A stretch of DNA of 64,000 nucleotides from Agrocybe praecox (taxonomy: Eukaryota > Basidiomycota > Agaricomycetes > Agaricales > Agrocybaceae). The stretch is taken from assembly GCA_964017145.1 (NCBI GenBank), contig OZ024841.1:3348001-3412000 (forward strand). Reading direction: 5' to 3'. How positions within the stretch are numbered: position 1 is the first letter of the stretch; the number at the start of each line of letters is the position of its first letter. Positions 40,947-63,359 of this stretch are shown here, piece by piece. The position numbers and the translations under genes were made by a program. The notes beneath the pieces are model-generated. The model worked only from the letters and a program-made list of their open reading frames with translations. It searched no databases and had not been told where the DNA came from.

Positions 40947-41037
40947 ACCTAACTTAATCAACGTCTAATTCTATCTCGCTGTCACTTCGCTATTTTTAAT
41001 CTTATCTTATCTACTCTCCGTCGACTTGTCAATCAAA

Positions 41038-41475: not shown

Positions 41476-41548
41476 CTTGTGGGTGTGGGCCATTGCAAGG
41501 CATGGCATGTACGAGTCCTGATTTAGAGTTTTATTGATTGTTGTTCAA

Positions 41549-44500
41549 TCATGTTGCACGTATGTAAATTGCTAATGAGGCTGTTGAATCCCCATTATAA
41601 ACATTATTCAAACTTAAATCATTAATTGAGTTAACATGACCATCATGTTTAACTACATGACCCATTGTAAAACCATCATGAAACCAAATATTACCATCTT
41701 CTGTAAAAATACGTGAAGTAAAATGTGCATTACCAAAATAAATTATACCTTTTAATACAAACTTATAAGCAGTATTGTCATAATCAAGATCTATACTTGT
41801 GTTTATATGCACTTGTGATCTGCTAAACTCTAATGCCATAAATTCAGGAATAGCTTCAAAACTATAATGTAATGTAAAATTTGTATTGCATCTCCTGCAT
41901 GTTTGCTGTGTAGGTTCTACATAGTTATCAATCCAGTTTTGTAAAGACTCATAATCATTATTTCCCATTGAAAAATATAAAGTATTTTCAGCATGAACAA
42001 AATATCGATGTCTATTTTCACACATTTTGTAAACAACTTGTGTACTTGTTTCTGTGGAAAATATCGCTTCAAATATATTTGACACCGCTGTATATCTAGC
42101 CCAAGCAAAGTTTTGAGAGTTAAAGTTCTGTAGTGCACGTCTAAAATTATCTCGTGTGGTCTCTAATGATGTACTTGTATTTTCCATATTCTCGAAGCCT
42201 AAAATCAAATTACTTAAAAGAGGATTTTTTATATTTTTGAATACAGCTGACCACTTTTCTTTATTATTATTCCAAATAGCATATAAGATAGTAATTGATG
42301 CATCATAAGCACAACTGTTATTACTCCATTGAAGACCACATGGTTTATTTAATGCTGTAAAGCGAGATTGGGTTAAACTTTGACATATTCTTTTTGGTGG
42401 ATGTTCATCACTGTTTTCATCATTTATTTTTCTTTTCCGCATCAACCCATTATCTAAATTGGTATTATTATATACAGATGTATTATTATTGCTATTCCAA
42501 ACTATAATTTCCGATTCATTTAATGGATCACGCTTTGACCATCTTATTGCCTTGTGAACATTTTTTGGAATATAACTTTCACCTTTGTATGTTCGAAAAG
42601 CTTTTATCAACTCATTTTGTGTTTCACCAATAACAGTTGCATTCAACTTTCCACAATGCTGTAATGATGTAAGATCATCAAGTAGTTCTAGCTCACGGAA
42701 CTCTTGACGTAAGGCACCAGATGCTCCACCAGTAATTTTCCTTTGGTCAAACCCTTGTAGAATAATTGTGCCACTTGCACTAGAACTTCTGGAAAGAGCA
42801 GTGTAGTATGCTTGATGACTTTGTAAATTATGAAGATCTACTGCATTTTCAGGTCGTGTCTTTCCTTGTGATGCATAATCAGTCATTGCAAAGTTTGGTA
42901 AAACTTCAACTTGTGTTCGAGATATATAAACAGATGTATCTTTCAATAATGAAGCTTTAATTGTTCGTGTGGTTACAGGGACAGGCACAACATTCTCAGG
43001 AAGACCATCAAATTCTATTAAAGATGGAGGATTTTTTAATTTAACAAATAGTGTGTCAAGAACACGTTGGCCATTTTTTCCAATTTTTGATTGCCATCCA
43101 TGAACAAACCCTTCCTGTCCTCTTGTAATACATAGCTCAGTAGCAAAATTATATCGTATCATTACAGGCAATCCAATACACAGAGAAAGTTTTCCTGCAA
43201 TAAATTTGTTATTTGCAGATGGTGGTTGGTTCCAAAGAAGATTTTGCATATCTGATGTGATTTCCTTTATATGTAATGTTCGAGATTGATCAAATTTATT
43301 TTCAGAAATAGATTCTCTGACTTGTGCATTATCATCAGAGTAAAAATTGGTCAAACTTTGATTAGTTTCAAGTGCAAATCGTTCACTACCAACTTGATTG
43401 ATTTGATCTTTATGGATATTTTTAGCTGTAATAATAGATACATTGCGGAACTTTGCATCAGTAATTGAATCACGCCCTGGAAGCTTTGATGTTACACGGG
43501 TAAGCAGAAATGCAATATCTTCCAAGGTACATGACTTATAACGCATGTTTTCTAATGCTGTACAGAATTGATTATCTTCCAAACTTTGATTTTTTTGACG
43601 CATATTTTGTCTGAGAATAACAACAGTTGTTACCTGATGCCATAATGCCTTTCCAATTGCTGCTTCCTGTGAATTTTTGTAGGAGGACTTAGACCCAACT
43701 ACATTACTATATAATGAAATTTTTTCTCCACCCATTGCAGGAGGCAATTGTGCAAAACCACCTGCAAATACCATATTCATTCCACCAAAAGGTTTATCGT
43801 AAATATTAAGAACTTTAGCTAGTTGAGAATTAATTTTTTGCATATCTCGACAAGAAAGCATGGACACCTCATCAAAGAAAATATAGTCTACACCTTGCAA
43901 ACGTGATTTTATTTGAGACATCTTTGTGCTCTTTGCATAATCATTTATTCCAAATAGATAGTGATATGTTGATCCACCTAATAATGCAGCTGCAGTACCT
44001 GTTGGAGCAACAATAGTAAAACGATGTGCTTCATTTCGTTGTTCAAAAAAGTATGAAACTGCTTTTAATACTTGGGATTTTCCTGTTCCACCAATGCCAC
44101 CCAAGTACATTTTTAATTGGTTTCCTGAATTTCCAAGAGCATGTTCAGCAATAATTTTAAAAGCACGTTGTTGCTCTTTATTCAAACTGAATTTCTGTAT
44201 TGATAATTGAATCACATCAACATCTTTTATAATGTATGAATTTTTTCCTTTTTCAAGGTCTGATTTGTCAATAATGTGTACAGTACCAGATGCATGTTTA
44301 CTGGGTAAATTACAAGCATCTACTGGATTATTCATTGTTCTATCAAGTCCATTAAACTCATTGCGTTTGTCTAGTATATTTTGCCGGTATTTTGATATCT
44401 CATTACTCCACTCAGATGCAGTTAATGTTTTTTTAGGGCGAAATTCTTCAGAGTTAAAAGAATCATCAAAAATGTCCTTGTTCCAACCTACATTTTCAAG

Positions 44501-47500
44501 TACCTCATTTATTTCAGCCATATTCTTCCTTCGTAGTACCTCTGATTTTCCTATAGTGCTTGCATCTAATGGATTATCATCATATTCAATATTAGAATTA
44601 GTATTATTTGCATTTACAACATCATCAACATCATCTTCATTCTCATCCCAGCTTCCAACAAATAAAGGATCTATATTTTTTTTTAATTGTGCACGGTAAT
44701 CATCTCTAGCGTCCATACACTCATATCTAATGTTAAAATTATTCATTAATTCATTTTGTCTATTTGTAAATTTGTATTTGTTGAATTCCTCATTCCATGT
44801 TGACGGACTGCATTTCAAATCTATTCCTGTTCTCCATGGCTTAAATAAAGTAAGCATTGTTGTGCAATAATATTCTCGATCCCCTTGATCTCGTCTTGGC
44901 AGTGTTGCACCAATAAAGTTTGGCACAGTCTTTGAATAAGATGATAATTCTTTTACAGCATGTGTGTCGTACAAAGGATGTGGTTGAATAAAGGAATATA
45001 ACTTTTTGTTTTTCTTGGTTGCCAAATTAGCATCATCTTCTGGCTTGTCAACATTATTCAGATATTCGACCTCACTATGCTCAGTATTATCACTTTCTAT
45101 GGTTTGGTTGGATATAAATGATGTATCTTGAGTATCATCATCTGGAGTAAATTCTTCCGATATTTTATTTTTTGATTTTTGATTTTTAGGAATTTTTATC
45201 CGTGCATATCGAGTAATCCATTCATAAAGAGTAACATGCTCAAGCATTGGTGATCGATAAATATAATCATATACTGGAGAAATTCCTACAATACGACCTT
45301 TGCGTTTTATCAAGGCTACTCTATGCTGTTGAGAAGTCTCTAAATTTTCTTCATGATTCTCAAAACAGCTTTTTGCCTCAGTAACATATGATTGCCAGTA
45401 AAATGGTACAAAAATGTGATCAGTATAATGATCTGGATTATCCAGAAGATACATGCATATCATTGGTGCACCCATTTCCATTTTGGCACTTAATAGATTT
45501 ACAACTTTCATCGTGATTCTACGAGCTTTTTCTTTCATTGGTAGTGTGCCACCTAGCATTTCACTATTTTTGTGAAATATAGACTTGATTGAATCAAAAA
45601 TCACATGAGTTTTTAAAGAAGATTTTGTAATATAATCAGAAACATATATAACAACAGCTTTGATTGCAGTTCCTGAAGACAAGCTTGTAACATCAGTATT
45701 ACATCTAAATAAGTATGTAACAATGGGTGTAAAGGTATTTAGCCAAGGCTCGAGTTTTTTTACATCAATTGCACCAGTTAAGTTATTAATTATGGACTTT
45801 GCAAATGTAGGCCGAGGAAATCGTGCCTTACATCTACCCCACTTATTGTCTTTACATCCTACAGCTGTTCCTTTTTTGCGCATACCATTTTTGTTAATAT
45901 TTCTATCACAGCAATGAACATTAGACTTTAATAATAAATCATCAATAATGACATTTATGCGGTTCCACCATGTAGTATTATTATTACAGTACCCACAATC
46001 AGTTATTTTTTCTTGTGTTTTTTTAGTGCTTCTGCTATGATCTATATTGCACATTGGAGGAGGAAGCTCAGGCAGACTTTGTGTTGGGTCACAATAATTT
46101 TTTTCTTTTGTCATTTCATTTACTTTATTTATAACTTCTTCATGTGTTCCTGTGGTAAATTCACCGATATGGCATGTCTCAAGATATTGAATAATTTTTT
46201 CATTCCATGTTGAATCCATTTGCATAATTTGATTACGCATATCTTGTGGACTTAATGATCCTTGAATCCATAACATCATATGCAAATGTAATGTAAGACG
46301 ACCTTGCTGCTCAACAGTTCCATAATATGCCTTTGTATTACCATAAAGTCCTCTATGTTTTGCATTAACACCTAAAACATCTGTGATAAATGTCTCAATC
46401 ATAAAATGGAAAAAGCGAGCACCTGCAACAGGGTTTCCACATATCATATGTATGCATTCATTGTATGGTAGTAAGACATCTGGCTTAAATTCTTCTTTAT
46501 TGTCAGCATAGTATATACATATTGGATGTTGAATGTCAGCAGGTGACAATGTAATATACCAAGACGGAGCACCAGCATATGAAATTAAAGACCATATTTC
46601 ATTACGCATATATTTCTTGCTTGTTGATGAACCTTTGACTTTTCCTGCTACATGATCTAGATCATGTATTACCTGAAAACATTGTTTTTCCATGTCTGTT
46701 TCAGGTTTAAAATATTCACCTTCTGATAATTTTTTTGTAATATCAGACAATACATTTTGATCAAGATTGAGAAGTCTTTGGGTTATTGATTCAAATCTCT
46801 TTTGATCAACAATTAAAAAGCTCTGAGTACTAGCTTGTTTCATTTGACTGTGACTAAATGCAACAAAAGGAAAATTAATATCAGTTTGAAATCGTTTATC
46901 ATGATACATAAGAAGCCATTTTTTGTGTTCTTTTTCAGAGAGACTAGTGGTGCCAATACCACCCATTCCATATGGAAATAGCCATGGAAACATTTGACGA
47001 TATAATTGAGGATTATTCCACATTGACTCAATATTTTCACTATGACCTACAGCTAACATTTTTCCTTGATTATTTAGATGTTGAAGTGCCATAGCCTTAA
47101 TTGTGTTAGTTGTCATTGTTTCAAGTGAGTCTCCTGTTAATCCATGAACAGAGAAAGAGCATTCACCCTCATCAGTGCCATCATCAATTTCTGTGTCAAA
47201 TACACTTGTTCCTTCTGGTACTTTATTTGACTCTGATTGATGATATTCAATTGAGACAGGAGCTTCTGTTTCTGAATATTGCAGAAGATTTTCAGATGAT
47301 ATTTTTACATTTGCATAATCAGGATGGTTTAAACAAAGCCATTCCAATGCATGTGAAACAGCATTTCTGCGTATTAAAAATGGAGTACGATTTAAGTCAG
47401 CTTGTGTAGGTTTACAAGGTCCAGTAAAAAGAATTGCAAGAACTTCATCTAAGTCATCACGAGGAGGGGGAAGAACTTCATATACTTTTGCAATTGGTGA

Positions 47501-48928
47501 TTGAAATGCAATAACATTAGCTTTCATTTTTTTCATACCTGAAGCTACTTTAACATAACAACATGTATGTCTTACTTTAGCAATTAGTAATTTTTCAACA
47601 AAGCGCAGTGATTTGAGCTCTTGTGGAACCTTTCCAAGCCATAATCCATTTGCTAATGCCAAACGTGGAACTTTATTATTTCTGACCGACATTCGACAAG
47701 AATTACATATTCGGTTACAAGAATAATCTAGAACAGGGCCTGTATATTGCTTAATTTTTTCATTCTGACTTTTTCTTTCTCTTCTGGTTATACCTTCAAT
47801 TGTTAAGCAATGCAAGAAATTTTTCACATTTTTTAAGCGGCTCATTGCACAAATAGGCTTTAACTGACCACATACAGCACAACCTGCTTCTTCAACATTC
47901 TTGGGTATCATTTTTTTAATAGAGCTAGACAGTATGTCATGTACTAGTTGCTGGCTAGGAGGTGAGGGAGGAAACTCATATGTCATATCTTTTTCTTCTT
48001 CAATGATATCACTTTTTTTTTCTTTTATATTTTTTATATTTTGTGCTTTTAACAATCGACTTTTTTGCTGACGTTTTACAGCATTATTAGAAACACTGTT
48101 TTCAATACTGAATACAGTAAATAACATTACACATGAAATACAAGAATGATTTTCAACAGACATAGAAAGCAATTTCGCATTACAGTTTGTACCTAATATT
48201 ATTTTATGTTTAGTTGCAATTTTCCGAGCTTGTGTAAGAGTTATTAAAGAAAATAAAATTGGCAAAGGTATTTGTGTATGAAAGTATTTGTCTTGAGGAT
48301 AATCACATAGACCAGAGCTATTTACATGATCAACATATTTAAACTGAGAAGTATGAGGAGGAGAAAAGATATAATCAATTGCTATATATGGCTCCAGAGT
48401 ATCATATGTATATACACGTGGCCTATGTCCACCATAGAAAGGTTGGATTCTTGATTGTTTTTTGTTTAAAAGTGGCTCTACATTGAAAACCTTTATTGGA
48501 CATAACTTTTGATTCCACTGTTTTCTTTTAGAATAACACATGGGTTTTATTTTTGGAAACAGAATGTTAAGCCCGGAGAATTGAAATAGTGAAAATGATA
48601 ATGAGACTGGAATATAATATTGTGCTCGAGAAATTACACTTGTGTAATGATAATTTTGAAATGCTTTGAAATCATGTTTTGTCATAATCAAGCGAACAAA
48701 TATCAAAAAAAGGTCAAGCATAGCAAAATTAGGAAACTTGGAAAAGATAAAAATAAAAATCATATTATCAACAATACAGCCTGAACATGCAAGATAATTC
48801 AAAGAAAGTTCTATATAGAGATGAAATAAATTGAAAAGGAGCAACTGAAATTCCTTTACAAAATCCAATATTATTTGGATTATACTTATTGAAAATTCTT
48901 CGTAAAAACACCCTCGTGGGTATAGCAA
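41549..48928 (-). CDS. Helitron Rep-helicase with C-terminal peptidase-like domain
   Basis: The frame is 2459 residues without interruption. In order: a DUF6570-like Cys-rich N-terminal block (about 370-470; CAVCGQLKP, LALANGLWLG); the Helitron_like_N region; the HUH nuclease motif LHLHMMLWIQG (about 880) and the tyrosine motif YVSDYITK (about 1096); and a PIF1-type superfamily-1 helicase with GGIGGTGKSQ (about 1609) and FFDEVSML (about 1686). Rep nicks and joins single-strand ends and the helicase unwinds during rolling-circle transposition. After residue about 2190 comes a block with LQWSNNSCAYDAS and, near 2400, FGNAHFTSR, resembling the Cys and His boxes of ubiquitin-specific proteases. 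The true start is uncertain: the first 330 residues are AT-rich and unlike the family, so a start nearer MTYEFPPSPPSQ is possible. The gene is much more AT-rich than its neighbours. Confidence 0.9.
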   Translation of the reverse strand: MLYPRGCFYEEFSISIIQIILDFVKEFQLLLFNLFHLYIELSLNYLACSGCIVDNMIFIFIFSKFPNFAMLDLFLIFVRLIMTKHDFKAFQNYHYTSVISRAQYYIPVSLSFSLFQFSGLNILFPKIKPMCYSKRKQWNQKLCPIKVFNVEPLLNKKQSRIQPFYGGHRPRVYTYDTLEPYIAIDYIFSPPHTSQFKYVDHVNSSGLCDYPQDKYFHTQIPLPILFSLITLTQARKIATKHKIILGTNCNAKLLSMSVENHSCISCVMLFTVFSIENSVSNNAVKRQQKSRLLKAQNIKNIKEKKSDIIEEEKDMTYEFPPSPPSQQLVHDILSSSIKKMIPKNVEEAGCAVCGQLKPICAMSRLKNVKNFLHCLTIEGITRRERKSQNEKIKQYTGPVLDYSCNRICNSCRMSVRNNKVPRLALANGLWLGKVPQELKSLRFVEKLLIAKVRHTCCYVKVASGMKKMKANVIAFQSPIAKVYEVLPPPRDDLDEVLAILFTGPCKPTQADLNRTPFLIRRNAVSHALEWLCLNHPDYANVKISSENLLQYSETEAPVSIEYHQSESNKVPEGTSVFDTEIDDGTDEGECSFSVHGLTGDSLETMTTNTIKAMALQHLNNQGKMLAVGHSENIESMWNNPQLYRQMFPWLFPYGMGGIGTTSLSEKEHKKWLLMYHDKRFQTDINFPFVAFSHSQMKQASTQSFLIVDQKRFESITQRLLNLDQNVLSDITKKLSEGEYFKPETDMEKQCFQVIHDLDHVAGKVKGSSTSKKYMRNEIWSLISYAGAPSWYITLSPADIQHPICIYYADNKEEFKPDVLLPYNECIHMICGNPVAGARFFHFMIETFITDVLGVNAKHRGLYGNTKAYYGTVEQQGRLTLHLHMMLWIQGSLSPQDMRNQIMQMDSTWNEKIIQYLETCHIGEFTTGTHEEVINKVNEMTKEKNYCDPTQSLPELPPPMCNIDHSRSTKKTQEKITDCGYCNNNTTWWNRINVIIDDLLLKSNVHCCDRNINKNGMRKKGTAVGCKDNKWGRCKARFPRPTFAKSIINNLTGAIDVKKLEPWLNTFTPIVTYLFRCNTDVTSLSSGTAIKAVVIYVSDYITKSSLKTHVIFDSIKSIFHKNSEMLGGTLPMKEKARRITMKVVNLLSAKMEMGAPMICMYLLDNPDHYTDHIFVPFYWQSYVTEAKSCFENHEENLETSQQHRVALIKRKGRIVGISPVYDYIYRSPMLEHVTLYEWITRYARIKIPKNQKSKNKISEEFTPDDDTQDTSFISNQTIESDNTEHSEVEYLNNVDKPEDDANLATKKNKKLYSFIQPHPLYDTHAVKELSSYSKTVPNFIGATLPRRDQGDREYYCTTMLTLFKPWRTGIDLKCSPSTWNEEFNKYKFTNRQNELMNNFNIRYECMDARDDYRAQLKKNIDPLFVGSWDENEDDVDDVVNANNTNSNIEYDDNPLDASTIGKSEVLRRKNMAEINEVLENVGWNKDIFDDSFNSEEFRPKKTLTASEWSNEISKYRQNILDKRNEFNGLDRTMNNPVDACNLPSKHASGTVHIIDKSDLEKGKNSYIIKDVDVIQLSIQKFSLNKEQQRAFKIIAEHALGNSGNQLKMYLGGIGGTGKSQVLKAVSYFFEQRNEAHRFTIVAPTGTAAALLGGSTYHYLFGINDYAKSTKMSQIKSRLQGVDYIFFDEVSMLSCRDMQKINSQLAKVLNIYDKPFGGMNMVFAGGFAQLPPAMGGEKISLYSNVVGSKSSYKNSQEAAIGKALWHQVTTVVILRQNMRQKNQSLEDNQFCTALENMRYKSCTLEDIAFLLTRVTSKLPGRDSITDAKFRNVSIITAKNIHKDQINQVGSERFALETNQSLTNFYSDDNAQVRESISENKFDQSRTLHIKEITSDMQNLLWNQPPSANNKFIAGKLSLCIGLPVMIRYNFATELCITRGQEGFVHGWQSKIGKNGQRVLDTLFVKLKNPPSLIEFDGLPENVVPVPVTTRTIKASLLKDTSVYISRTQVEVLPNFAMTDYASQGKTRPENAVDLHNLQSHQAYYTALSRSSSASGTIILQGFDQRKITGGASGALRQEFRELELLDDLTSLQHCGKLNATVIGETQNELIKAFRTYKGESYIPKNVHKAIRWSKRDPLNESEIIVWNSNNNTSVYNNTNLDNGLMRKRKINDENSDEHPPKRICQSLTQSRFTALNKPCGLQWSNNSCAYDASITILYAIWNNNKEKWSAVFKNIKNPLLSNLILGFENMENTSTSLETTRDNFRRALQNFNSQNFAWARYTAVSNIFEAIFSTETSTQVVYKMCENRHRYFVHAENTLYFSMGNNDYESLQNWIDNYVEPTQQTCRRCNTNFTLHYSFEAIPEFMALEFSRSQVHINTSIDLDYDNTAYKFVLKGIIYFGNAHFTSRIFTEDGNIWFHDGFTMGHVVKHDGHVNSINDLSLNNVYNGDSTASLAIYIRAT

Positions 48929-48949
48929 AAAGCTATTATATGATAACCC

Positions 48950-49490: not shown

Positions 49491-49820
49491 GCTAGCAGTA
49501 GGATACAAGATCCTCTAGTATGTTGGAGTTTGTTGCCATCATGTACAGAGGACTTCAAGAGCGAGGATTGACACATTGTAGTTAACGGTCGTCGGTGAAT
49601 GAGATAAACGTGTATTATGGCTGCATTCAGACGCGTAAACGAACAGGTGCCAAATATGTACAACAGGACTGGATTACAAACCACGTGAGTATATCTATGT
49701 ATGGAAATAAGGCCTTGACTCTACTGCTCCTGCTACGTTTTTTGTTGTAAAAACTAACCTATGATCTAACACTATCTCTGGAGACACAACGAGTGAACCT
49801 AACACGACTACGACTACGAA
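49491..49820. other. Spacer, no gene recognised
   Basis: No conserved reading frame seen between the minus-strand exon-like block and the GMC fragment. Confidence 0.3.
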
Positions 49821-49847
49821 CTGAGTTCCGCTCGGACTCACAGGAGC

Positions 49848-50118
49848 TTGAGCATCAAGAATTCTTTGGATAATTCGATCATCACTGCTTTACACATAGC
49901 AGGTGTGGAATTCAAGACAGCGGAAGGAGATGTGAAGATATTTTCTGTCACAAAGGAAGTAGTATTGGCTGCTGGAATGATTGGTAGCCCCAAGGTGTTA
50001 GAGCTGTCGGGGATCAGTAATATCATGCATGTTTTTATTGCTTTCTTATCTTTTGATTACTGACTTGAATTTATAGAATTCTGAGGGCCGCCGGCGTTGA
50101 ACCAGCACTGGTTAGTCT
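49848..50118 (+). pseudogene. GMC oxidoreductase fragment (captured)
   Basis: GVEFKTAEGDVKIFSVTKEV, VLAAGMIGSPKVLELSGIS, then an intron (GTAATA...TTATAG) and ILRAAGVEPAL, match the flavin-binding core of glucose-methanol-choline oxidoreductases (the AGxIxSPxxLxxSG signature). Only about 80 residues of the usual 600 are present, with no N-terminal FAD-binding start and no C-terminal catalytic His region. It runs directly into a histidine acid phosphatase fragment in the same direction. Confidence 0.8.
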
Positions 50119-50184
50119 TGTTCCACACACATCACATAGCAAGAGGCTTAAAGGCAAACAGTGCATAGTCTTCCGTACCCAGAA

Positions 50185-50775
50185 AATTGCGGAACAGTGT
50201 CGGTCGTTCATGCAAGCCCGTTCAGCTGCTTTGGGACATTCACTGCCTGTCCTTGCACCTCTTGGGTCGTCGGATGCTCAGACGTCGATCTTTGGTGGAC
50301 CGATTGCAGAACGTCTCAATACGCAAGCACCAGGTGCTAATTTGACATCCGCGGATATACCGAACCTGATTCCTCCGTGTGCATTCGAAACCCTTGCAAA
50401 GGAAGCGCCTAGCAAGTTCTATTCTCTATTTTTTTGCTCAAGGGTTCGCCCAATTCAAATATTCCTCTGATCTAGAGAAGTACTATGGAACTGGGTTTGT
50501 ATTTCATTCATGCAATCAAAGTGATCAACTGAAACTTAGGCGCAACTTAGGCATCTGGTACCAGGTATGGGCAGGAACTTGGTGCAGTCCAAGGCATCGG
50601 ATATGTTAACGAACTTCTAGCACGGTTCATGGGAACACTGGTATGAGACAACACGCAGACGAACAGAATGCTCGACGCATTCCCTATGCAGAAAGACTGT
50701 CCATTCATGCTCGTTTCTGACAATCTAAGCTTTGCACATCTTATCCTCCCATTTGCGACGCTTCAAGACATGGCT
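50185..50775 (+). pseudogene. Histidine acid phosphatase (phytase-like) C-terminal fragment (captured)
   Basis: QKIAEQCRSFMQARSAALG, then FGGPIAERLNTQAPGANLTS, PPCAFETLAKEAPS and YSSDLEKYYGTG, followed in other frames by a GYVNELLARFMGT-like stretch and DNTQTNRMLDAF. This order matches the C-terminal half of fungal histidine acid phosphatases. The N-terminal RHG active-site motif is absent, and the frame changes near 50440 and 50590. Where the family has a HDN proton-donor motif, the sequence here reads SDN, so the site looks lost. It is flanked by unrelated gene fragments. Confidence 0.75.
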
Positions 50776-51758
50776 AATCCTTGTTCCCTTCCTCATTTCC
50801 ATGTCTGTCCTCAACTAATGTCCTCAAAGTCGACAGAGGAAGCTTTATTTAGCATTCCTCATGATGAGATTCCAAGACGGCACTTGAAGCAAGATGAATT
50901 CGAATGTTTAAATCTCAACTCTACCCTCCCTGCTGGCCATACTCTACGATCAAAGATATCTGTCATGCTTTGGATACACGGGTTCGTCCTCCTTTCTTTC
51001 TCCGCGATCTTCCGAGCACTAATTCTATAATGCAGCAGCGGCGACATAGGTTCTGGGTCAGAATGGTATTACGACGCTGGATCCATCGTTTGCAAAAGCA
51101 TCGAGTACAGTAAACCGGTTATCGTCGTTACCTGCAAGTAAGCGAACAATGTTTATGTCGCCGAGGTTGGTCGTTCATCATTCTGCTCAGCTTCTGTTTA
51201 GGCCTTTTGGGCTTCGCTACCAGTGCCATGATTCGCGATGACAACAAAGCAGCAGGGGAAGAAGGCACGGGAAATTATGGTAATTATCGTACTTTTTCGA
51301 AACGTGTTACCTGTTTGCTAATGTACAATGTGTATAGGCCTCCGAGATCAACGAATGGCTATTCTATGGATCCATAACTACATCTCCGAATTTGGAGGTG
51401 ACCCTTCAAACATCACCCTCTTTGGCTCTGGATCAGGAGCAGCCGACATCGTTTGTCATCTTCTCTCGCGCACCAATGCGACCCGTCCGTTATTCCATCG
51501 CTCGATAATCCAATCTGCCGTATTTGAACCAACGTTCCCAGATGTCGGTTCTGCCGGATGATACTTGTCGCGGGTCATGGCTGCCCTACAAGTCTCAAGC
51601 ACAGAGACACTGCATTACATCGAAGTCGAGAAACTTCTGGGCTTCGGTTCAAATCTGCGAGCAGTAGACGATGGCGTCTTCTTCCGGGATGGTTGGCAGA
51701 GCCACTTTGGTCGTGAAGGTCCTCATGCACATCATGACCACACGGAGCGCTCAAAGCC
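50776..51758 (+). pseudogene. Type-B carboxylesterase fragment, 5' part (captured, broken)
   Basis: DEFECLNLNSTLPAG and SVMLWIHG end at an intron and are followed by SGSEWYYDAGSIVCKSIEYS, KPVIVVTC, GLRDQRMAILWIHNYISEFG and GDPSNITLFGSGSG. The family motif at the last position is GESxG with the catalytic Ser; here that Ser is Gly. A TGA at 51559 replaces the usual Trp before YLSRVMAALQVSS. The sequence continues through RAVDDGVFFRDGWQ to 51758, where a long-TIR element is inserted. It resumes at 55266 in the same frame. With the nonsense codon and lost nucleophile it is not functional. Confidence 0.8.
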
Positions 51759-52535: not shown

Positions 52536-52650
52536 CTCGCTGGCGCGTACCCGTTCGCACCTACTTGCTGGCGCGTACCCGTTCGCACCTACTTGCTGGC
52601 GCGTACCCGTTCGCACCTACTCGCTGACGCGTACACGCTCGCACCTACTC
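52536..52650. repeat. 28-bp minisatellite, about four copies
   Basis: The unit contains CTTGCTGGCGCGTACCCGTT followed by CGCACCTA. Three copies are nearly identical and the fourth has diverged (CTCGCTGACGCGTACACGCT). Confidence 0.8.
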
Positions 52651-53083
52651 GGTTCGGTGGTGCTACGTGCTGGCACTTATCCGCTCGGTGATGGCTGCGC
52701 GTTGGTGGCTACGCGCTGGCGTTTACCTGCTCGGTGATGCCTACCCGGTGGTACTCACCCGTTGCGTGAGCTAATTCACTCGGTGGTGCCTACCCGGTGG
52801 TGCTTATGCGCTCGCTGATGCCTGCCCGTTGCGCTCGGTAGTGCCTACCCGTTGCGGTCCCTGGTGCCTATCCACTGGTGCCCACCCATCACCCTCGCTG
52901 GTGCCTACTCGTCGTCATCATTGCCTCCTCGTCGTGCTCGTCGTGCGTGGTCGTGTTCGTCGTGGGCGTCCTCGTTGCCTCTTCGTTGTCATCGTGGTTG
53001 CCTCTTCGTTGCCGTCGTTCGTGTTGCCGTCGTCGTGGTTGCCTCGTCGTCGTCGCTACATCGTCATCGTCATTGTGAAAATA

Positions 53084-53910
53084 GCCCACATCCCTGCAAA
53101 GAGGGGAGGGGCTGGGTGCAGTCGGTTAACAGTGGTGGTGATGGTGATGGTGGGGGATGATAAGGAAGAAATCAACCAATTGATGGTTGATTTCGTCCAA
53201 ATTCGGCGATTCCCACGCCGGTCCGGTGAGTAACCGGGTCGAGCTCATCGTCGAGCTCGACAATGGCGAGGGCACAAAGTATATTATGTAGTTTTAAATT
53301 CATATTAAATGTTATAAAATCATGAGAAGCTAATTAGTGTTAAAAAAGGAACAGTCTTATATGTTTTTATAAAAAAAACATCACAAAACATAATTCATAT
53401 AGCGAGCGTGCTGATTTCGGTTCGACAGGTGAAGAAAGTATTCCATATTCTCAATGAATAATTCGCAATTTTATTCCAATTAAAGTACTATGTAGTAGAA
53501 ATACACTGTCTATGTTCAACAGAAAAAAAAAAGGACACCAGCGAATGTTATGAACATGTTATTCATTAACGCACGAAAAATGCATCGAGTTGAAAAGCGA
53601 GCACATGTACTCTTCAAACCGATGAGCATTCAAAGACATTTTATTAAATGTTTCTCAATTTTTTTTGACATAGGTAATTTTATTGACTATACTAACATAT
53701 TCTGCTACTTACTTTGAACTTACCATTCCCAGAGACCTTCTCGTCGTCGAGCACAGTGACGAGCTTGAACCGGCTATGAGCCGGACCGGCGTGGGAAAAG
53801 CCCGATTTGGACAGAAATGAACCAACGCGCGTTCATTTCTTCCTTATCAACGCCTGTCACCACGCCGGCACTTTGCACCTAGCCCCTCCCCTCACCGCAG
53901 GGATGTGGGC
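53084..53910. repeat. Nested inverted-repeat element inside member 2
   Basis: The left arm opens GCCCACATCCCTGC and the right arm (53897-53910) is its complement. Homology continues through GAGGGGAGGGGCT, GATAAGGAAGAAAT and CCCACGCCGGTCCGG. The arms reach about 170 bases, and the centre (53290-53710) is AT-rich. Confidence 0.7.
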
Positions 53911-53939
53911 AGTGCCTGGTATGGTGCGTGGCTCGCTCA

Positions 53940-54560
53940 CGACCAGACACGACAAGGACGACCACCCGCGACGAGGACGACCACCCACAACGAGGACGAC
54001 GAGGGTGACCACCCACGAGGAGGACGACCACGACGTGTAGGACGATACCCACGACCATGACGAGGGTGACCACCCACGAGGAGGACCACGACCACGACGT
54101 GGAGGACGATACCCACGACCACGACGGGGGTGACCACCCACGAGGAGGAGGACCACGACCACGAGGAGGGTGGCCACCCACCACGAGGAGGAGGACAACG
54201 ACGACGGGGGTGGCAACCCACTATGAGGACGGCGAGGGTGGCCACCCACCACGAGGAGGAGGACGACGACGACGAGGGTGGCCACCCACTACGACGACGA
54301 CGAAGGTAACCACCCACGAGGAGGACGAGGGTGGCCGCCCACCACGAGGAGAACGACGATCACGACGAGGGTGGCCACCACGAGGATGATGACAACGACG
54401 AGGAGGAGGGTGGCCACCCACGACGAAGAGGACGACGGCCACGATCACGACGAGGGTGGCCACCCACCACGAGCAGGATGACGGCCACGACCCCGACGAG
54501 GGTGAACACCCACGACGCTGACGGCCACGACCACGATCACGAGGAGGACGAGGACGAGGA
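53940..54560. repeat. GACGAGGGTGGCCACCCAC minisatellite
   Basis: Many degenerate units of 20-35 bases built on GAGGGTGGCCACCCAC and ACGAGGAGGAC fill this stretch. All six frames are open for long distances because the period keeps stops away. No gene. Confidence 0.8.
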
Positions 54561-55265
54561 CGAGGAAGAGGGTAGGCACCAGCGAACGCGTACGTACCAG
54601 CGAGTGCGTTGGCACCATCGGGCGCGTAGGCACCATGTCCCTCAGTACATTAGTTAACACATGTAATGTACTGTAACATACAAAATAAAATATGTTTGAA
54701 TGTTTTTATATGTTGTAAAAAGGATGTGCCCAAAAGGGCAATAAATGCCAAATAGGGAACTACCGTCTAAAACATAAGCTAAAAGGTCATTTTTTGGCAT
54801 CTAATCTAATCTACATTTATGTATGTAAAGTAAATATAGTACAAAAAATGATTATAAAATATTAAAAATAGCGCAGCGCCCAAAGAGTATTATGACGTCT
54901 AAAAATAACACGTCATCCGGTTTTGCTTTTGCGCATCCATCCCGTAACATTCCTTTTTGGTAGGGCAAAGGGCGCCAAAAAATCAGGATTAATTATCTGA
55001 TCCTAACCTCCCAACAAGCGCCCCAAACCACCCATTCATTCTTTCGCTATTGCCCAAATACTGCAAAAATGTCCAAATCCTGCATTGTTTATGCATATTT
55101 GCCTGAGGCATCTGCCAATGCCGCCCACTCAGCCTTTATGGCTACTCTGGTGTGCTTTATAAGCATTCATGCATCACTGGCCACCTTGGGCAATTGCCCT
55201 CCCTGATGTATGACTTATGTCAGCCAACTGCCCAGTTTCATATATGAAAGTAACAGCTAAGGCTG

Positions 55266-55847
55266 CAAAGCCAGTCGGTTGCAGGAATCATGCAACTGAC
55301 ATGCTCAAACCGCCCGTCGCCTCACCCAAGGGGAAAAGCAAGAGCAGAAGTAGGCCGCCACTCAGTAAACTGAGGTCGCGCTCGCGGCCGGCGAATAAAA
55401 TTGGAAATGCTGTCCAGACGGTACCAGACCCAACGACAACTCACAGGTTGCCTCCAACCGCTCATCATTGGTGACTCATCAGCTGATTCACTGCTATGGT
55501 CCAATGCTATTTCTTCATGGACGTCATCGGGTGTCACCCGTCGCTTGAAAGCTATCTGCCAATCACTGAGCAAGACAAGTGCTATCATGCGAGTTTATGA
55601 TATCTCTTCCAACACTCCAGACAATGAAATCACCGAGCATGTCTTGGATCTGGTCAACGATGCTTGGGTGGCGTGGCCTACGCACTGTATAGCCGAGAAT
55701 GCAGTTCTTGAACGGGGTGGGCAGGGCATCTGGCGATTCGTCTTCGACCAGGAAGGTCCTTCGAGGGGTATGCCCCACCACGCTGCGGACCTGATGTACC
55801 TGTTCGACAACGGGTTTCGTTTTCGATGCATTGCAATCAATCACTAG
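55266..55847 (+). pseudogene. Type-B carboxylesterase fragment, 3' part (captured)
   Basis: After a basic, Ser/Arg-rich stretch of about 150 bases unlike the family (GKSKSRSRPPLSKLRSRSR), the esterase resumes with LQPLIIGDSSADSLLW, RRLKAICQSLSKTSAIMR, TEHVLDLVNDAWVAWPTH and RFVFDQEGPSRGMPHHAADL. That order includes the conserved His near the C-terminus of the fold. It ends at MYLFDN, followed by a foreign tail and stop at 55847. The basic stretch suggests an earlier rearrangement. Confidence 0.8.
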
Positions 55848-56270
55848 CTTTACTATCGTTTTTCTCATAATACCTCTCCACTCAATCACATCCATCTTGT
55901 ATACTATGCCATTGATCTGCATACTATCTTTCTCATGCTCATTCCCCTATACTTTTTTCTCTCCTCCTTCTTCTGCGCTACCTCTTCAATACGCTTGTCT
56001 TAATTTGAGGGGACAGTATATACTATAAATGTTGTATCGAACATTCAACTAGACCGAATCTCAATCATACTCTCACCACAAGCCACCCAGCTTCAAGTCA
56101 AGTTGTACCGCCATCTAATGAGGCGATATAACCCCTTCACGATGAACATACTCCCTAAGTGTCGTCAATGGCAGTGTTCAAAGTAGATATTACAAGAAAA
56201 TTCGTATAAATTTCAATTTTATGAACACCGTGACGTACGAGCTCAAAAATTTACGGATACTGCTAAGTAC
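55848..56270. other. Spacer, no gene seen
   Basis: Pyrimidine-rich to about 55990, then mixed sequence. No conserved frame. Confidence 0.3.
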
Positions 56271-59152
56271 TCAGTCACCATCAATGAAACCATATAGAAG
56301 TACAAACTGGATATTAAACGAAAGAGCAAGTCCCTGGTTCATGTAAGGATAGGAGCCCATGGTATAGCCTACAGTAACAATGGCGTTCGTGGGCACTTCG
56401 GACTTGAGACCCATTTGAAATGGAGGAAGTTGGCTCAGCTGGCCGAAGCTAGCAGTAGAATAGTCGAAGTCCACGTTACGAAGGTCATACACAGGGACTG
56501 AAAAGAAATATAAGATCAGTAAATAGGTTACTACTAGTAACATATTCGAAGAGAACATACTTTTTTCCGTGTACTGCAAAAATTGAGGAAAAGCCAATGT
56601 TGCGGCTAGAGCAGCTTCGGATTTTGCGCCGGGAGTACGCGAACCAAAGATAGAAGAACGTTTCTTTGGAGACGAAAGAGGAGTAGAAGAAGAACTATAT
56701 TTCGAGCCGACAGCCATGCCTTCTCTGCCGCTTGTGAAGTGAAGAATGTCGGTGATGTATGGGGCAAACAAGACGGGGGATTTGAACTTCGAACCCATAA
56801 AGTTCACCATTGCGTCGAATTCTTCGAGAAGAATCCACACCCCAATTTGTTTGACATTTGCCGAACCGGAGCTGCTGGGAACACGGACGGGATTGAGTAA
56901 GTTACTTGAAGCCACACAACCACTTGACAGAAAGAGTGATGGATTGCCGGAGCCAAGAGTACAAAGACGAGAGGAAACTTTGGTCGTCTCGGTGAGAGCA
57001 GCACGAGCGGGATTAACAAGTGGACTTGAAGAAACGAAGGTATATGCGCGTGCAAAATTTCTGCAAATTGATCAGTAACTGTACATAGAATGTACACGAA
57101 TTGCAAGAATGAATACCTCCGGCCAGCGCCATCCCCAAGGCATTCAAAAATTGCGTCGTACAGTGGCAAGCTCGAAGGACAATCGACATTGATCCCATTG
57201 GCCAGGGCATCCTTGAGCATGTTTGGATAGGGTTCCAGGGTGTAGCGTCTGTGAATATCAAGACAAAGTGGGCACAGATACAAACATAGATATATATAGA
57301 GAGAGATTTACGTTTGATCGACGTTGTCCTTCATATCAGTGTCACCATCTACCTCTAACGGGGTCTCCATCATGGTTCCTTCAGCTTTTTTGCTGTGGGC
57401 AGGCCCCCCCTCTCTTTCTTTGCCTTTGTCGTTGATGCTAGGATACTGTTGTTGTCTACAAAATGAGATGAGGACCAAATGTTGAGAAAAGAAGGACAAA
57501 TGAGAATCACCGTGTATGCTTTTTTTCTCTATTGGATTCCAGGTCCTGATGTGACAGACGATAATCCGATGCTGAAGGGCTTATAGCTGCAGGAGAAACA
57601 GCGCGTTGTTTTTTCTTCAAAGGTTGAGCCTTGACACTGCTAGAGTTAATAGTCAACAAAGGACTATCGAACAAATTGATGAAAAAAACATACTGGGATA
57701 GAGGTGTTTCATCCTCGGACACGTCAACAGCAGGAGAAATTGCACGTCTTTCATGATGAGTCAGTAGTGTATTGGATTATTAGAATGAATAGATTACGCA
57801 CCTTTTGTTTCCAACTTTGTCAGCTTCGTTGTCCGTGGGATCCCAACGAAAAGATGCAGCGGACTTCGCAGATTCGGCGTCAGATACATCGACGACAGAA
57901 CGTTTCTTCGAATTGTTGGTCTTCGAAACATTTCCAGGTAGCTTGGAAGGCATGTTATTGGATGAAAAGACGGAAGCCTCTGGTGTCTTCTTGATATTCT
58001 TCTTTTTAGGAGTGGGACGACGTTTTGCGGGTCTGATTAGATAAAATAAGAGGAAGTAGCGAAAGGAAGAGAGTAGTAAACTTACACGTAGTCGCTCTGG
58101 TCATCATCAGCCTCTATGTACTGAGCTTTCTCGGTGGGTTTGCGCCTGTAAACAGTATCACAAATTTAGTTCAAATGCCAAATAAAGGGAAGAGAAATAA
58201 ACACCAACACCCGTTTGTCCTTGATGGGAACAGGTGAACTAAGGCTGGGTGGGATTGGGAGAAAATCATTCAAGTCTTCATCACCAGAGCTGTGAGATAG
58301 AAATGCCAGGCGGCGGCCAAATGGTCTGTACTGACAGAAATGAAAGTTTGGCGGGAACAACGTACCCCATTGCTGAGCCAAAGGAAAGCTTTCGAGCCAC
58401 AGAGCGAGAGCCAGTCATTTTGGAGCTAAACACAGTACAGTATGATTAGAAAAGAAGTGAAATAACATCGTCGGGTGAGCATACGTTGATGAAACAGGTG
58501 GCAGTGCCTTATACTCGGGGGTACGGGGCTCTGGCTTCACGCCGGTTCGCTTGATCTTTGGAGGCAACGGGACCGTTGGATTCTCCATAATTTCTCTGCA
58601 AATAAGAGTCAAAGATGATTGATATTGGAGTGGAAAGAGTGTGAGGTAATGGTGATCACGTACCTATCAGTTGAATCTGTTTCGTTGTTGTCTGAGACGA
58701 TGATCTGCTTCCTGTTTGCTTTCTGGGTTGAATGGCTGTGATAAGTAGAACTGAGAAACACAGTTGATACAGAACAACGACAAATGACACGACATACCGA
58801 TGATCAACCTTCTTTTTGGTGACAACTTCTGCCACTATTTCGGGGCCCGATGAACTCAACTCATCAGAACTCCTAGAAATCCACAGTTAAGAACAGATAA
58901 TAGTCAAAAAAAAAAAAGTCAAAAAACAAACTCAGCATGCTTTTTCTTTTCAGCACGACGACCTCTGGCAATCATACACCGGATCAGCACCATAACGCAA
59001 GGATGTAACAGTGAGATGACTAACTTGCGTGATTTGGGATTGGGAGACGGCATTGGAATAGACGAAGATTCGGTGATTGGCAAAATTTTAGGCTGGTATG
59101 AGCAGGGAACTTTGAAGCAACGGTGGGCGATAGAGGATCTGATATGCGCCAT
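56271..59152 (-). CDS. Multi-exon gene of unknown function, reading frame apparently intact
   Basis: Starting at the ATG at 59152 (MAHIRSSIAHRCF), fifteen exons separated by fourteen short GT-AG introns join in one open frame of roughly 650-700 residues to the stop at 56271. The last intron is 56498-56560. The N-terminal two thirds are low-complexity, rich in Lys/Ser/Pro and acidic runs (RRPTPKKKNIKKTPE, DVSDAESAKS), as in disordered nuclear proteins. The C-terminal part is compact: YTLEPYPNMLKDALANGI, IGVWILLEEFDAMVNFMG, VPVYDLRNVDFDY, then VGYTMGSYPY and LSFNIQFVLLYG. I recall similar C-terminal regions in expanded families of uncharacterised mushroom proteins. Its function is unknown. Keeping fourteen splice junctions in frame is notable amid fragments and suggests recent capture or continued constraint. 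Confidence 0.7.
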
Positions 59153-60016
59153 TATATATACAGATAAGGAAGGAGTGTGAATCGGAAATGCAACGGAAAT
59201 GGTAAGGTGTTAAGGGAAAAGTAATGTGAATCATGGTTTGAAGTAGTTGCCATCTTCTGGCGAGTGATTCAGACGTCGTGCGCAAGGAACAAAGAAGTCG
59301 AAGACAGTGGTTCGCCATCTTTATTGGCGCGAAACACGTGAGGTGAGAACATAATGTTTTCGTTTTGTCACATTCCAAAGACACCAAATACTGGCATTGT
59401 TTTCAAATTATTCCAAAATGAGGCAGTTAGGTGGCACTACATAAGTCTCTTTGCGATGTGTTATAGAGATACTTATTTCAAACAACAACAAAACATAGGA
59501 TCAATAATGTATAAGCAAATAGGCAAAAAAAATAATCATACTCAGTTCAAGCAGAATCAAGGTTTGCGAATCAATCGAGGATGGTTACTTTACATAGCAA
59601 ATGAACAACCAAAAGTAATAATTATTTCCGCGTTTGAGCCTTTTCGTTCCTACGATAATCACAGCACACTAAACCCGTTGATAATTGCGAAGTTCATCTG
59701 CCCACATGGGCAAAATACAAAACACGCTAAACTTGGATAATGAAACTATGAAAGTCAGACGAAATTCCAAAATATAGAAATTCGCAACTTCGCTGGGGAG
59801 TAGGACGGGCGTTAGTCCATCGGGACCGCAGATGCAACAGATCGTCAATAATAGGAGACGGAAGCGTACAATGCGAAAGATGCATCTAGCAAGAATTCAG
59901 TATAGAAAATCCAAATGATCGTGTTAATCAAAGTAGCATAACCCACCATTCGATAGAGCAACTTCACAGCAGCTACACAGACGCAATGATTCCTGGATAC
60001 GACAAATCCGAAGCAG
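59153..60016. other. Spacer, no gene supported
   Basis: An open frame at 59354-59740 has no motif and unremarkable composition. A TATATATA lies 5' of the minus-strand gene near 59152. Confidence 0.35.
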
Positions 60017-60139
60017 GTGAGTAGGCCTCCAATCAGGCATTGGCAGAGCATGAATAAACTTACCTTTTTTTTTCACACAGCAAAACGTCTCGAAGATTTT
60101 GCACAAGAGCGTTTCAATAGCGCCCACAGTGGACTCCAG

Positions 60140-60954
60140 CTGTCCAGAATGTCTTCAATCGCTGCACACTACGAGACGTTCCCCATAGGTTCTGTAAAGA
60201 AACTGGTCCATATACGCTCCAATGCGGACGAACCTTTGGAAGAAGTCTTAGCAATGTTTCAAGGAATCATTGCAAAGAAACACTTACCTCCCTTCACGGA
60301 GCGGATTGGGTGCGTGCTCAAAGAATTCTGTGCATTCTGTGAATAAAAAACTCATACGAGGTTAGCAAAAACACGTCGAATGTTCGGTTCCTTCGACAAG
60401 GAGTTTCTTTGACGGGACTTGGCGGGGAAACATTTGCGAAGGGAGTGGGAGTCATTGCAGAGATACATGCAATTTTGGGAAGAGCAGTAGGTTTGGACAG
60501 AATCGAGGATTGCGGCTCGATCTCGACGTTCCATGGTTTGCCATCATTGGAAGTTTCGAACAGGTACTTTACTGCTCGCTCTCGACAAACGGACGACATG
60601 ACCGAAGTCCCGCTCCCACTAAACATTGATCCCCATGGCTATTTAGCCAATGCGGCGGGTGATGGCTTCTTCCATGGAGAGGAGAACCAGGTATCCTACT
60701 TTATTAGGCACGGAGAAAAAGAAGAGGAATATAAGTGAGTAAACCTTCTCAAAACTCCAACAATAAGCGAATACTTACATGATCAAAATAGGTACATAGC
60801 GACGGATCCTATTGGATTTGCAGTTGGCGATATCGTGGAGGTCCATGTCTCGTTTGCAGCAATTCCCCTGAAAGAGGGTAAGTATAAGTCAATCGTTATA
60901 CTGAGGGGGATAACATTGGTGGACGGCACACTTACGCAGGTGAGTTATGTATGA
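60140..60954 (+). CDS. Conserved fungal hypothetical protein, probably partial
   Basis: The best-supported part is a frame running to 60734 (FHGLPSLEVSNRYFTARSRQ, then VPLPLNIDPHGYLANA), an intron 60735-60791 (GTGAGT...ATAG), and YIATDPIGFAVGDIVEVHVS, then KYKSIVILRGITLVDG, ending at 60954 or at a further donor (GTGAGT). I recognise this pattern, with NIDP-GYL followed by F--GDIVE-QVSF and L-LR-I, from many uncharacterised Agaricomycete proteins, often near transposons; no function is known. An upstream frame from 60150 (MSSIAAHYETFPIGS) may be 5' exons, but its link to the domain was not resolved. Confidence 0.5.
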
Positions 60955-61374
60955 ATCATCTAAATGGTAAATAGCAAGGCTGACAGAGCGTTTGAAAATC
61001 ATTAGCAAGCAAAATCACAGCAAGCCACCATCTACTCAGGCATTGCACAGCCAACAGTAAAGATGGCAAAACGCAAAGTGGGATAAGGAGATGAACAAGT
61101 TTCGGTCGCGCGTGCACGAATTGAACGGATGGGGATTCAGGACAAAAGCGGGGGTGAGGCCAAAGAAGTAGAAAGTAAAGAAGGGAGCAATGAGGAGAAC
61201 GAAAGAGATGATGACAAGATGAACACGCTTGATTGAACAAGTAATTTATTTTATCAGAGCGAATATATGTACAGTTGATGTACTGGTAAAGAGATTTGTC
61301 GAAACGCGCACCAGCTGAGACGGTCTTTTGTCTAGTATATCCTATCTCAGAGTTCGATGAGGAAAGAACAATTT
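60955..61374. other. Spacer, no gene seen
   Basis: No conserved frame. A 94-residue minus-strand frame at 60956-61240 is Leu/Pro/Cys-rich without recognised motifs. Confidence 0.35.
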
Positions 61375-61690
61375 TGCTTTCAAGCTATTCCGCTGGTTTG
61401 CCTAGAGTAGCCGACACGGATTTATAGTCCAACACATCGTCAATCGGCTGTAATAAAATCGATAATTATTTCATGGAATTTTAGATCACGACGTACTTGA
61501 ATGCAATGCCCAGGTTTCTGCCATATGCAAACGCAATTTCTTTCCACACCTCGCCGTCGCGACACCCTCCCAGCACCACCGCTGATCTTGCTCCCTTTGC
61601 CATTAGGCTCGCCGTTTTTAGGTATGTCTTTTGCAGATATATTCCAAGAGATATTCGTACAGGTCACATATCCATCACCCCTTGCCGGAG
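61375..61690 (-). pseudogene. Polyprenyl diphosphate synthase, C-terminal exons (captured fragment)
   Basis: On the minus strand YLQKTYLKTASLMAKGARSA, then VVLGG and VWKEIAFAYGRNLGIAF, precede an intron (GTACGT...TTACAG). After it comes IDDVLDYKSVSATLGKP, the second Asp-rich motif of trans-prenyltransferases. These are hallmarks of the COQ1-type hexa/octaprenyl diphosphate synthase that makes the ubiquinone side chain. The junction after the intron is out of phase by one base relative to the expected CAG-codon splice, and a stop follows GKPAE, so this is a broken piece. Confidence 0.75.
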
Positions 61691-62785
61691 CAGGTCCTGA
61701 TCGATGATCCACTAGCGACCGACGGGGTTTTCGGGTGCTGTGGCTGAAGTTACACATACAGATGGTATGTCAAAGGTCGATGAGTGGTTCGAATAGGAAC
61801 TGGAACCTGCGGAAGATGATGTCGAATGAGGAGAGTTTGGGGCTTGGGTTCTAGAAGAAGAGAAGTAGGATGGATTAGTTTAATGATCATTTAGTGGTAA
61901 AAAAAACCTGAGCCCAATGGCCAGCAGACAGAGACGGAAGTAAGATAGAAAAAATGAGAAGAGAACGCGAGGAAAAAGAAGATAGGACATATGCATATAA
62001 AAGAAAGAAAGGAACGTACCACGACAACATCCTCACGAATCACCATATCCATGCGACGGCATAAGTTGAGAAATTTTGATGACCGATGCGGATGCTACTC
62101 TGCCCCCGTTCCGCCCACCTCCACCTCGTACTTCTCCAAGGCCTCTCATCGTTGTCAATCGCCCCACACAAGCGCGCATCGTACACCTAAGGCGCCGAAC
62201 GTTTCCTACCCGCTGTACTCATGTTGTTGCTTTCTCTGCTCTCGATATCTTGCTCTCCAGGTTCATCGCACCTCGAGGTGGTGGCAGGGTATAATGGTAC
62301 GGCGTGTGGTGCCAAATTGGGTACTTCAGATCGTCGTATTTGGTGCTCCTTCCACGACCTCGCGCAGGTTCGGATGGCAAAGCTGGCCCCATATGCATTA
62401 TTGAGGTATGTGGTACGTAAACTGCATCTTCTTGACGAATGGTGCTGGTGATGAGGTGGATGGAAGGGGACAGAATTGGGTGGTGGTGACTGCTATCATT
62501 GAATATATAAATATGAATAGCGAGGAAAATAGTGAGAGTAAAACATACGTCTTCTTATTCCGAACCACTCCTAAAGCAATATCTCGCATGAAACGTATCC
62601 TCCCATCGACGACAGGATTGATGGGAGCATCCTGATTTGCGTAGTCTTGAGCTCGCTCGCCGATATCAGAATGAATTCATTTGGGCCAGCTGCGTTCTCG
62701 CCAACATGGTGAGTTGTGAATTCAGAGAAGTGAGTTGATCCCGGGAGATGATGTAGTTTATAGTGTGAGCAGACTAGCAGTGTAT
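61691..62785. other. Region between prenyl synthase pieces, unresolved
   Basis: No frame was confidently identified. A minus-strand stretch near 62560-62650 (NPVVDGRIRFMRDIALGVV) is open but was not assigned; it could be another captured exon. Confidence 0.3.
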
Positions 62786-62895
62786 TCTTATCTGTGACCT
62801 CGCTGTCTCCGAGCCGGGATAATGCTGCAAAGTCACGTCCCAATACACAGTTGCCACCGAGGATGGAGAGTTTGTTGCCGTATGAAGCGCTCGGG
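62786..62895 (-). pseudogene. Polyprenyl diphosphate synthase, upstream exon (captured fragment)
   Basis: SYGNKLSILGGNCVLGRDFA, then ALSRLGDSEV, matches the FGNKLSxLGGDFLLGRA segment that follows the first Asp-rich motif in the same enzyme. It lies upstream, on the same strand, of the pieces at 61375-61690, so one gene copy was probably taken up and then disrupted. The first DDxxD segment was not found. Confidence 0.65.
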
Positions 62896-63349
62896 CGCGT
62901 TAGAGATCTGTCCAATTCGTTCGCGCTCCCTCCGGCACCTTTACATTGCAACTCTCATAGCTTTCATCTCCAGTCTCCTCCAAGTCCATTCGTGGCCTGA
63001 ACTAACAAAAGAACGATGACAGGGCGTACTTGTTTCGACGGATGTAGTACTTTGTAATTTCTGTGATTGCTGGATGACCTGACGCATGTGGGGCTAGAGC
63101 ACTTCGGGCACGGCTACATTGCTTCAGGAATTGAGCGCGTCGGTGCATGTTGAGAAGCAAAGCTGAAAAACGACGTAAAGTTGGATGCAAACATCGATGT
63201 ATAGAATAAACGTACTGGTAGTAGCTAGCGAAAGATCACATGACCGAACCGGTTACTGGTTTAACCGGCTGAGAACTTTGATCCGGGCACTTAACTGTGA
63301 CAAGATCAAAAACAGGACACGCGCAATATAAGAACTCGTCCTCTTAGGA
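62896..63349. other. Helitron 5'-side flank, no gene seen
   Basis: No supported reading frame. Its end carries a hairpin, GTCCTC-TTAG-GAGGAC (63338-63353), next to the terminal TACGAGTCC repeat. Confidence 0.4.
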
Positions 63350-63359
63350 GGACTCGTAA

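Follow-up and report, generated by a model that had tools for sequence, protein, structure and literature searches.

A 21.9-kb putatively autonomous Helitron-superfamily element with captured host sequences in the gag gene of a copia retrotransposon of Agrocybe praecox

The window analyzed here is a stretch of 64,000 nucleotides of the Agrocybe praecox genome (GenBank assembly GCA_964017145.1, contig OZ024841.1, positions 3,348,001 to 3,412,000 of the forward strand). Within it lies a copia retrotransposon whose gag gene is interrupted, between positions 41476 and 63359, by 21,884 bp holding a long RepHel transposase frame, fragments of other genes, and a further, nested transposon. A preliminary description of the window had interpreted this insert as one rolling-circle transposon carrying foreign gene pieces, an interpretation that is supported by the analyses presented below.

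The host retrotransposon and the insertion site

The host copia element spans 40689-68043 (positions beyond 64,000 refer to the extended window) and measures 5471 bp without the insert. Its 5' long terminal repeat (LTR) occupies 40689-40927 (~239 bp), its gag start codon (ATG) lies at 41038-41040, and the target site duplication TAATG is found at 40684-40688 and 68044-68048. With a single mismatch between the two LTRs over 240 aligned bp the copia element is young, and the Helitron insertion is therefore younger still, in keeping with the youth ascribed to both elements by the preliminary description. The host gag frame runs without a stop from 40969 to the left junction, where codon 146 ends at 41475; beyond the insert it continues in phase from 63360 through 934 open codons to a stop at 66162, as had been claimed for the two sides of the junction.

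Each junction was searched against the window's own genome assembly (59.2 Mb, 347 contigs), places in which are denoted below by C and a number. The left-junction search returned copia flank at C12, C4, and C3, each match stopping at query base 61 (position 41476), while the right-junction search returned the same three places, each match beginning at query base 80 (position 63359). Because the left and right flank matches overlap at these places by just two bases, A-C, the three represent empty sites. One of these copia copies is identical to the window over 61 bases on either side of the junction; the C12 site matches the flanks at 787/788 bp on the left and 1550/1561 bp on the right, and the C4 and C3 sites are 95.1% and 97.2% identical to the fetched flanks, respectively. 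In all three empty sites found, gag is uninterrupted, with no extra sequence at this point and no duplication, and it follows that insertion neither duplicated nor removed a base, as the preliminary description had it; the boundary 41476/63359 can slide by one base each way. Taken together, these data confirm that 41476-63359 is one clean insertion into copia gag, falling, on the element's own strand, just before a T. The components of the locus are as follows.

40689..41475, plus strand: left part of the host copia element (LTRs, flanks, Retrotran_gag_2 match)
41476..63359, minus strand: Helitron-superfamily element, 21,884 bp (three empty sites; same ends in other copies)
41476..41535, minus strand: 3' terminal region, with the inverted repeat AGGACTCGTA 34 nt from the end, a short palindrome, and terminal CACAAG (end comparison)
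41549..48949, minus strand: open RepHel frame, 2466 amino acids (aa) from stop to stop, first ATG at codon 63 (DUF6570, Helitron_like_N, PIF1)
49720..50264, plus strand: two pieces of a dispersed family, 49720-49839 and 50161-50264 (C6:2839141-2839627 spans both)
49837..50166, plus strand: GMC oxidoreductase fragment (85% to C3:4378952-4379227, fainter to 4379313; PF00732, E 3.1e-6)
50264..50687, plus strand: histidine phosphatase fragment (82% to C4:825990-826412; His_Phos_2 in the C4 frames)
50700..56045, plus strand: carboxylesterase fragment in pieces (89-95% to C12:2172053-2174539; 27 identical bp at 56019-56045)
51759..55266, no strand assigned: nested multi-copy transposon with terminal inverted repeats (TIR), arms 51787-52210 and 54815-55238 (flanking AAAGCC)
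56048..56157, minus strand: 110-bp piece (86% to C5:3377065-3377174; the Helitron strand follows the C5 plus strand)
56158..61052, no strand assigned: stretch of ~4.9 kb without assignment (genome search)
61052..61642, minus strand: Helitron-family internal sequence, parts common to the C13, C8, C12, and C11 copies (genome search, copy alignments)
61643..62790, no strand assigned: captured C1 sequence, 1148 bp (88% to C1:273654-274495, 87% to C1:274845-275154)
62791..63359, minus strand: 5' terminal region, common to the C11, C12, and partly the C8 copies, with a 5' hairpin and the inverted repeat TACGAGTCCT (copy alignments)
63360..64000, plus strand: right part of the host copia element, gag back in phase (junction alignment, empty sites)

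The preliminary statement that everything between the junctions carries Helitron features is too strong, as it fails for the nested transposon and the ~4.9-kb stretch at 56158-61052.

Family ends, transposase, and classification

The sense strand of the element is the minus strand, with the 5' end at 63359 (TTACGAGTCCTCC...) and the 3' end at 41476 (...CACAAG, then T). Counted over the collected loci, window included, the family comprises at least 14 5' ends and 8 3' ends. A genome search for further copies sharing both exact ends yielded at least five, on C11 (4180 bp, stitched from loci across a 149-base gap), C8 (2587 bp), C12 (1897 bp), C6 (1274 bp), and C10 (451 bp), and a further copy, near position 825 kb of C6, has an altered 3' end. 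Because these five copies carry both exact ends, the ends of the insert belong to one family, which leaves the notion of two separate insertions unsupported. A perfect 10-bp inverted repeat links the 5' end to a position 34 nt inside the 3' terminus; only 5 of 20,000 single-base shuffles of the 3' end reach it, and it recurs at other family 3' ends with 0-2 changes.

The RepHel frame is unbroken and, together with the empty sites and the family ends, bears out the identification of the insert as a rolling-circle transposon. Its Pfam matches are to Helitron_like_N (E 5e-33), PIF1 (E 6.7e-26), and DUF6570, and the HLH (HUH), YxxxY two-tyrosine, and Walker A/B motifs are in place in 23/23 aligned sequences, that is, the query and 22 mostly near full-length relatives hand-picked from 120 listed (675 found). 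No significant Pfam match was obtained for the C-terminal 266 aa; in this region (~2205-2466) N-S-C is kept in 22/23 sequences and a later H in 19/23, a W..DG motif is present in most aligned relatives, and a cysteine peptidase is possible judging from these residues. Helitron-borne deubiquitinase domains have been described (PMC9741609).

The nearest RepHel relative found in the genome, on C9, is 67% identical, partial, and contains two stops, while the rest are at most 52% identical. Open RepHel frames of 2438 aa occur at C6:579893-586840 and C3:4326617-4333564, each 43% identical to that of the window, and perhaps represent another Helitron lineage whose transposase genes are open. The window's RepHel frame is AT-rich, with a GC content at third codon positions (GC3) of 0.20 against 46% GC over positions 1-40683 of the window. 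A recent horizontal origin is nevertheless unsupported by composition, as 1.5 kb sampled from the C9 relative is equally AT-rich (GC3 0.19); a sample of the C6 relative has a GC3 of 0.42.

The combination of a HUH/two-tyrosine and PIF1 RepHel protein with the lack of a target site duplication places the element in the Helitron superfamily, for which rolling-circle movement is predicted. The canonical Helitron1 ends (5' TC, 3' CTRR) are replaced in exact copies by TTACG... and ...CAAG. A T directly follows the 3' end in 7/8 cases, the eighth, a variant end, having T after CAAG; of the 14 5' ends, 13 are preceded by a purine (8 by G, 5 by A) and one by T, the window site being G^T. The insertion site is thus closer to the canonical A^T than to the T-run site of Helitron2 (TTTT^T or C, per PMC5148889), being mostly purine^T, although the asymmetric terminal inverted repeats of Helitron2 are present. 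The added AP (apurinic/apyrimidinic) endonuclease of Helentrons is missing from the RepHel Pfam matches at E <= 0.01. The ends are accordingly classed as Helitron2-like rather than canonical. Starships, which are also large and cargo-bearing, encode a DUF3435 tyrosine recombinase and create a target duplication. Such an identity, considered in view of the size, the cargo, and the TTAC end, was rejected: the subset of frames scanned holds no DUF3435 match, and there is no target duplication.

Captured sequences and other features of the window

The cargo sits between RepHel and the 5' end, and the three recognized gene fragments (GMC oxidoreductase, phosphatase, esterase) are on the plus strand, opposite to the transposase. 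The foreign gene pieces named in the preliminary description match loci elsewhere in the genome. Three of the genome searches scored all candidates and two others the best 40 of 236 and 40 of 198, so that copy counts are lower bounds. The GMC fragment, whose identity is read from the window sequence itself, separates the two pieces of the dispersed family. The window's own phosphatase frame has no Pfam match, and its identity is taken from the C4 frames. Similarly, the esterase is identified mainly from the C12 frame (COesterase E 2.3e-23), which shares 85% identity with a protein of Agrocybe pediades, the window frame reaching E 2e-4, below the Pfam cut-off. This fragment is split by the nested transposon, is without 751 bp of its source, and contains an in-frame stop. 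RNA-mediated capture of the esterase is judged unlikely, since the copy aligns through intervals of the C12 match that, from the split frames, appear intron-like. The 350-bp gap in the C1 match is read as a deletion because it has no intron-like ends and ~3 shared bases; the internal deletion of the esterase shares 2 bp. For 56158-61052 no other DNA match was found in the genome (4/4 candidates scored), and no homologue was found for a 131-aa frame at 60343-60738.

Most aligned pieces show 80-95% identity to the sequences they match elsewhere, and the cargo is older than the insertion. The direction of transfer, which for some pieces we infer, is likely to have been from host to Helitron for the esterase and the phosphatase, because coding sequence absent from the Helitron is present at their loci. 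Arriving after this cargo, the nested 3.5-kb transposon interrupted the esterase and is flanked by AAAGCC at 51753-51758 and 55267-55272; minus the nested element and its duplication, the Helitron measures 18,370 bp. A minisatellite of GACGAGGAGG-like units occupies 53987-54551 inside the nested transposon.

Mosaic interiors look like a habit of the family. The interior of the C8 copy (1371 bp searched) matches C6 at 98%, beside another family 5' end, as well as C5 twice and C3, while that of the C11 copy (1496 bp searched) matches, among others, C3 and a C10 cluster. Two short copies, at C8:2355987-2358573 and from C6:519577 onward, have related interiors (98% over 989 bp) composed of pieces with further matches on C5 and C3, which suggests amplification after capture.

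Elsewhere in the window, two similar NACHT/NPHP3_N-type NTPase genes (4331-6917 and 27037-29673, minus strand) lie ~22.7 kb apart with blocks of 82-86% identity, and the pair, along with nearby repeated blocks, suggests local duplication. Inverted arms at 22557-23095 and 26088-26625, ~3 kb apart and 90-92% complementary, are perhaps those of another TIR element.

Origin of the insert and relation to known Helitrons

On this evidence it is highly probable that the insert is a putatively autonomous Helitron-superfamily element with Helitron2-like ends that arrived in a single insertion without target duplication and gained its cargo partly via repair. In the mechanism we propose, the HUH/two-tyrosine domain of RepHel would nick the DNA and the PIF1 helicase would unwind one strand, starting at the 5' end (63359) and finishing at the 3' end (41476), the freed strand then being joined into the copia gag target, probably through a circle. 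Pieces of host DNA would have accumulated over time between the 5' end and the transposase, the C1 piece taking the place of older internal sequence when an internal break was mended by means of host DNA (filler DNA). Several observations weigh against this account. Genome searches, in which the top candidates were scored, found neither a donor nor a second full copy, and a donor would be expected to persist after rolling-circle transposition; it may have segregated away, be unassembled, or have been lost. Shuffled sequences fold as well as the 6-bp 5' hairpin in 12/200 cases and as well as the 3' palindrome GCCAT...ATGGC in 47/200, such that neither structure stands above shuffles. At the cargo joins, C4|C12 has 12 unmatched nt and C12|C5 has ~5, C3|C6 is blurred by divergence, and a 1-3 bp match at any single join can be chance.

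Capture by 3' end bypass, in which the transposase runs past its 3' end into flanking host DNA up to a new terminator, has been shown for Helraiser (PMC4778049) and is called the prevailing explanation (PMC6431247), and could account for the pieces at 49.7-56.2 kb. All pieces, however, lie 5' of the transposase, on the side remote from the 3' end, and that end is an ordinary end of the family. Moreover, the C1 piece is situated near the 5' end within older family sequence, where it replaces 151 bp that are kept by the C11 and C12 relatives and by a third on C8 (ends not located); it is for this piece alone that the pre-capture state is seen in relatives. Identity with the source extends over 3 bp and 2 bp at the two joins of the C1 piece, while 3 bp are shared at C6|C3 and 1 bp at C6|C4. 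With 151 bp replaced, microhomology at the joins, and an ordinary 3' end, filler-DNA repair, for which a case has been made in insect Hel1 (PMC6544945), is favored for the C1 piece by this comparison of copies, and we regard end bypass as an improbable source of the cargo.

A composite origin, in which two Helitrons landed at the same point or side by side, or one inside the other, so that the left end and the transposase stem from one element and the right end from the other, finds a precedent in Fusarium, where Helitrons with multiple 5' ends and composites formed by self-insertion are discussed (PMC5148889), and the relatives with both ends are all short. Against this, at the tolerance applied, the window and a 9.8-kb extension contain a single family 5' end and a single family 3' end, and the empty site is exact. 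The C11 copy shares both the 5' sequence and 176 bp of the 3' sequence of the window at 89-94%, for which reason both ends are assigned to the same subfamily. A composite is accordingly very unlikely. Still less credible is an assembly artefact joining unrelated sequence within a copia copy: the searches turned up no second 21.9-kb copy, but both joins coincide with family ends seen elsewhere and with the empty sites, and the locus lies within a 4.7-Mb contig.

Several characteristics of this Helitron recur in described systems. Like FoHeli of Fusarium oxysporum (PMC5148889), it has terminal inverted repeats that are placed asymmetrically, with the 3' copy lying tens of bases inside the terminus, as well as a potential 5' hairpin, a RepHel frame, and no target duplication. 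FoHeli elements, however, are ~5-11 kb long with ends such as TCAG...ATTTT, as opposed to 21.9 kb and TTACGAG...CACAAG here, and insert at TNAT^A or TNAT^T (text and legend of PMC5148889 disagree) rather than at purine^T; the present element is also set apart by cargo from host genes that matches other loci of its genome. HELPO1 and HELPO2 of the agaricomycete Pleurotus ostreatus (PMC4289320) likewise combine RepHel with extra genes and occur as open-frame and short copies, and HELPO2 ends in CTTG in place of CTRR, a likeness to the non-CTRR end described here. They differ in being at most 13.7 kb with a RepHel of ~1400 aa, against 21.9 kb and 2466 aa, and the cap genes described for them are without copies outside Helitrons, whereas several pieces here match host loci. 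Maize Helitrons (PMC3288121) similarly carry several gene fragments per element, captured stepwise; in the present case the cargo is borne by an element with open RepHel, in a fungal host, and one pre-capture state is seen. Insect Hel1 (PMC6544945) resembles the element in capture inside the element, short matches at joins, and shorter core relatives, while the present element is long, with an open transposase and protein-gene fragments. Finally, Helraiser of bats (PMC4778049) shares the HUH/helicase transposase and insertion beside a T without duplication, but differs in its AT-site preference and in its demonstrated capture by 3' bypass.

Reported maximum lengths of fungal Helitrons are 11 kb (PMC5148889), 13.7 kb (PMC4289320), and 14 kb (PMC6431247), and maize Helitrons reach 39 kb (PMC6431247); a partial literature search turned up no fungal Helitron larger than the one described here. 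The element is thus a new member of the Helitron superfamily that is unusually large and unusually well delimited. A bolder proposal, which we put forward as speculative, is that it belongs to a maize-like gene-shuffling family in which the open-transposase element itself is the cargo carrier, captures by break repair, and moves as a unit of ~18-22 kb. If true, the missing donor would point to circle movement without a retained copy, or to arrival from another nucleus or strain. The locus provides a natural insertion, resolved to the base, of a very large open-transposase Helitron with empty sites in the same genome, and its cargo, with matching loci and one pre-capture state, makes filler-DNA repair and end bypass comparable within one element. 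Its ends and RepHel together supply a concrete candidate whose activity could be tested in a fungus.

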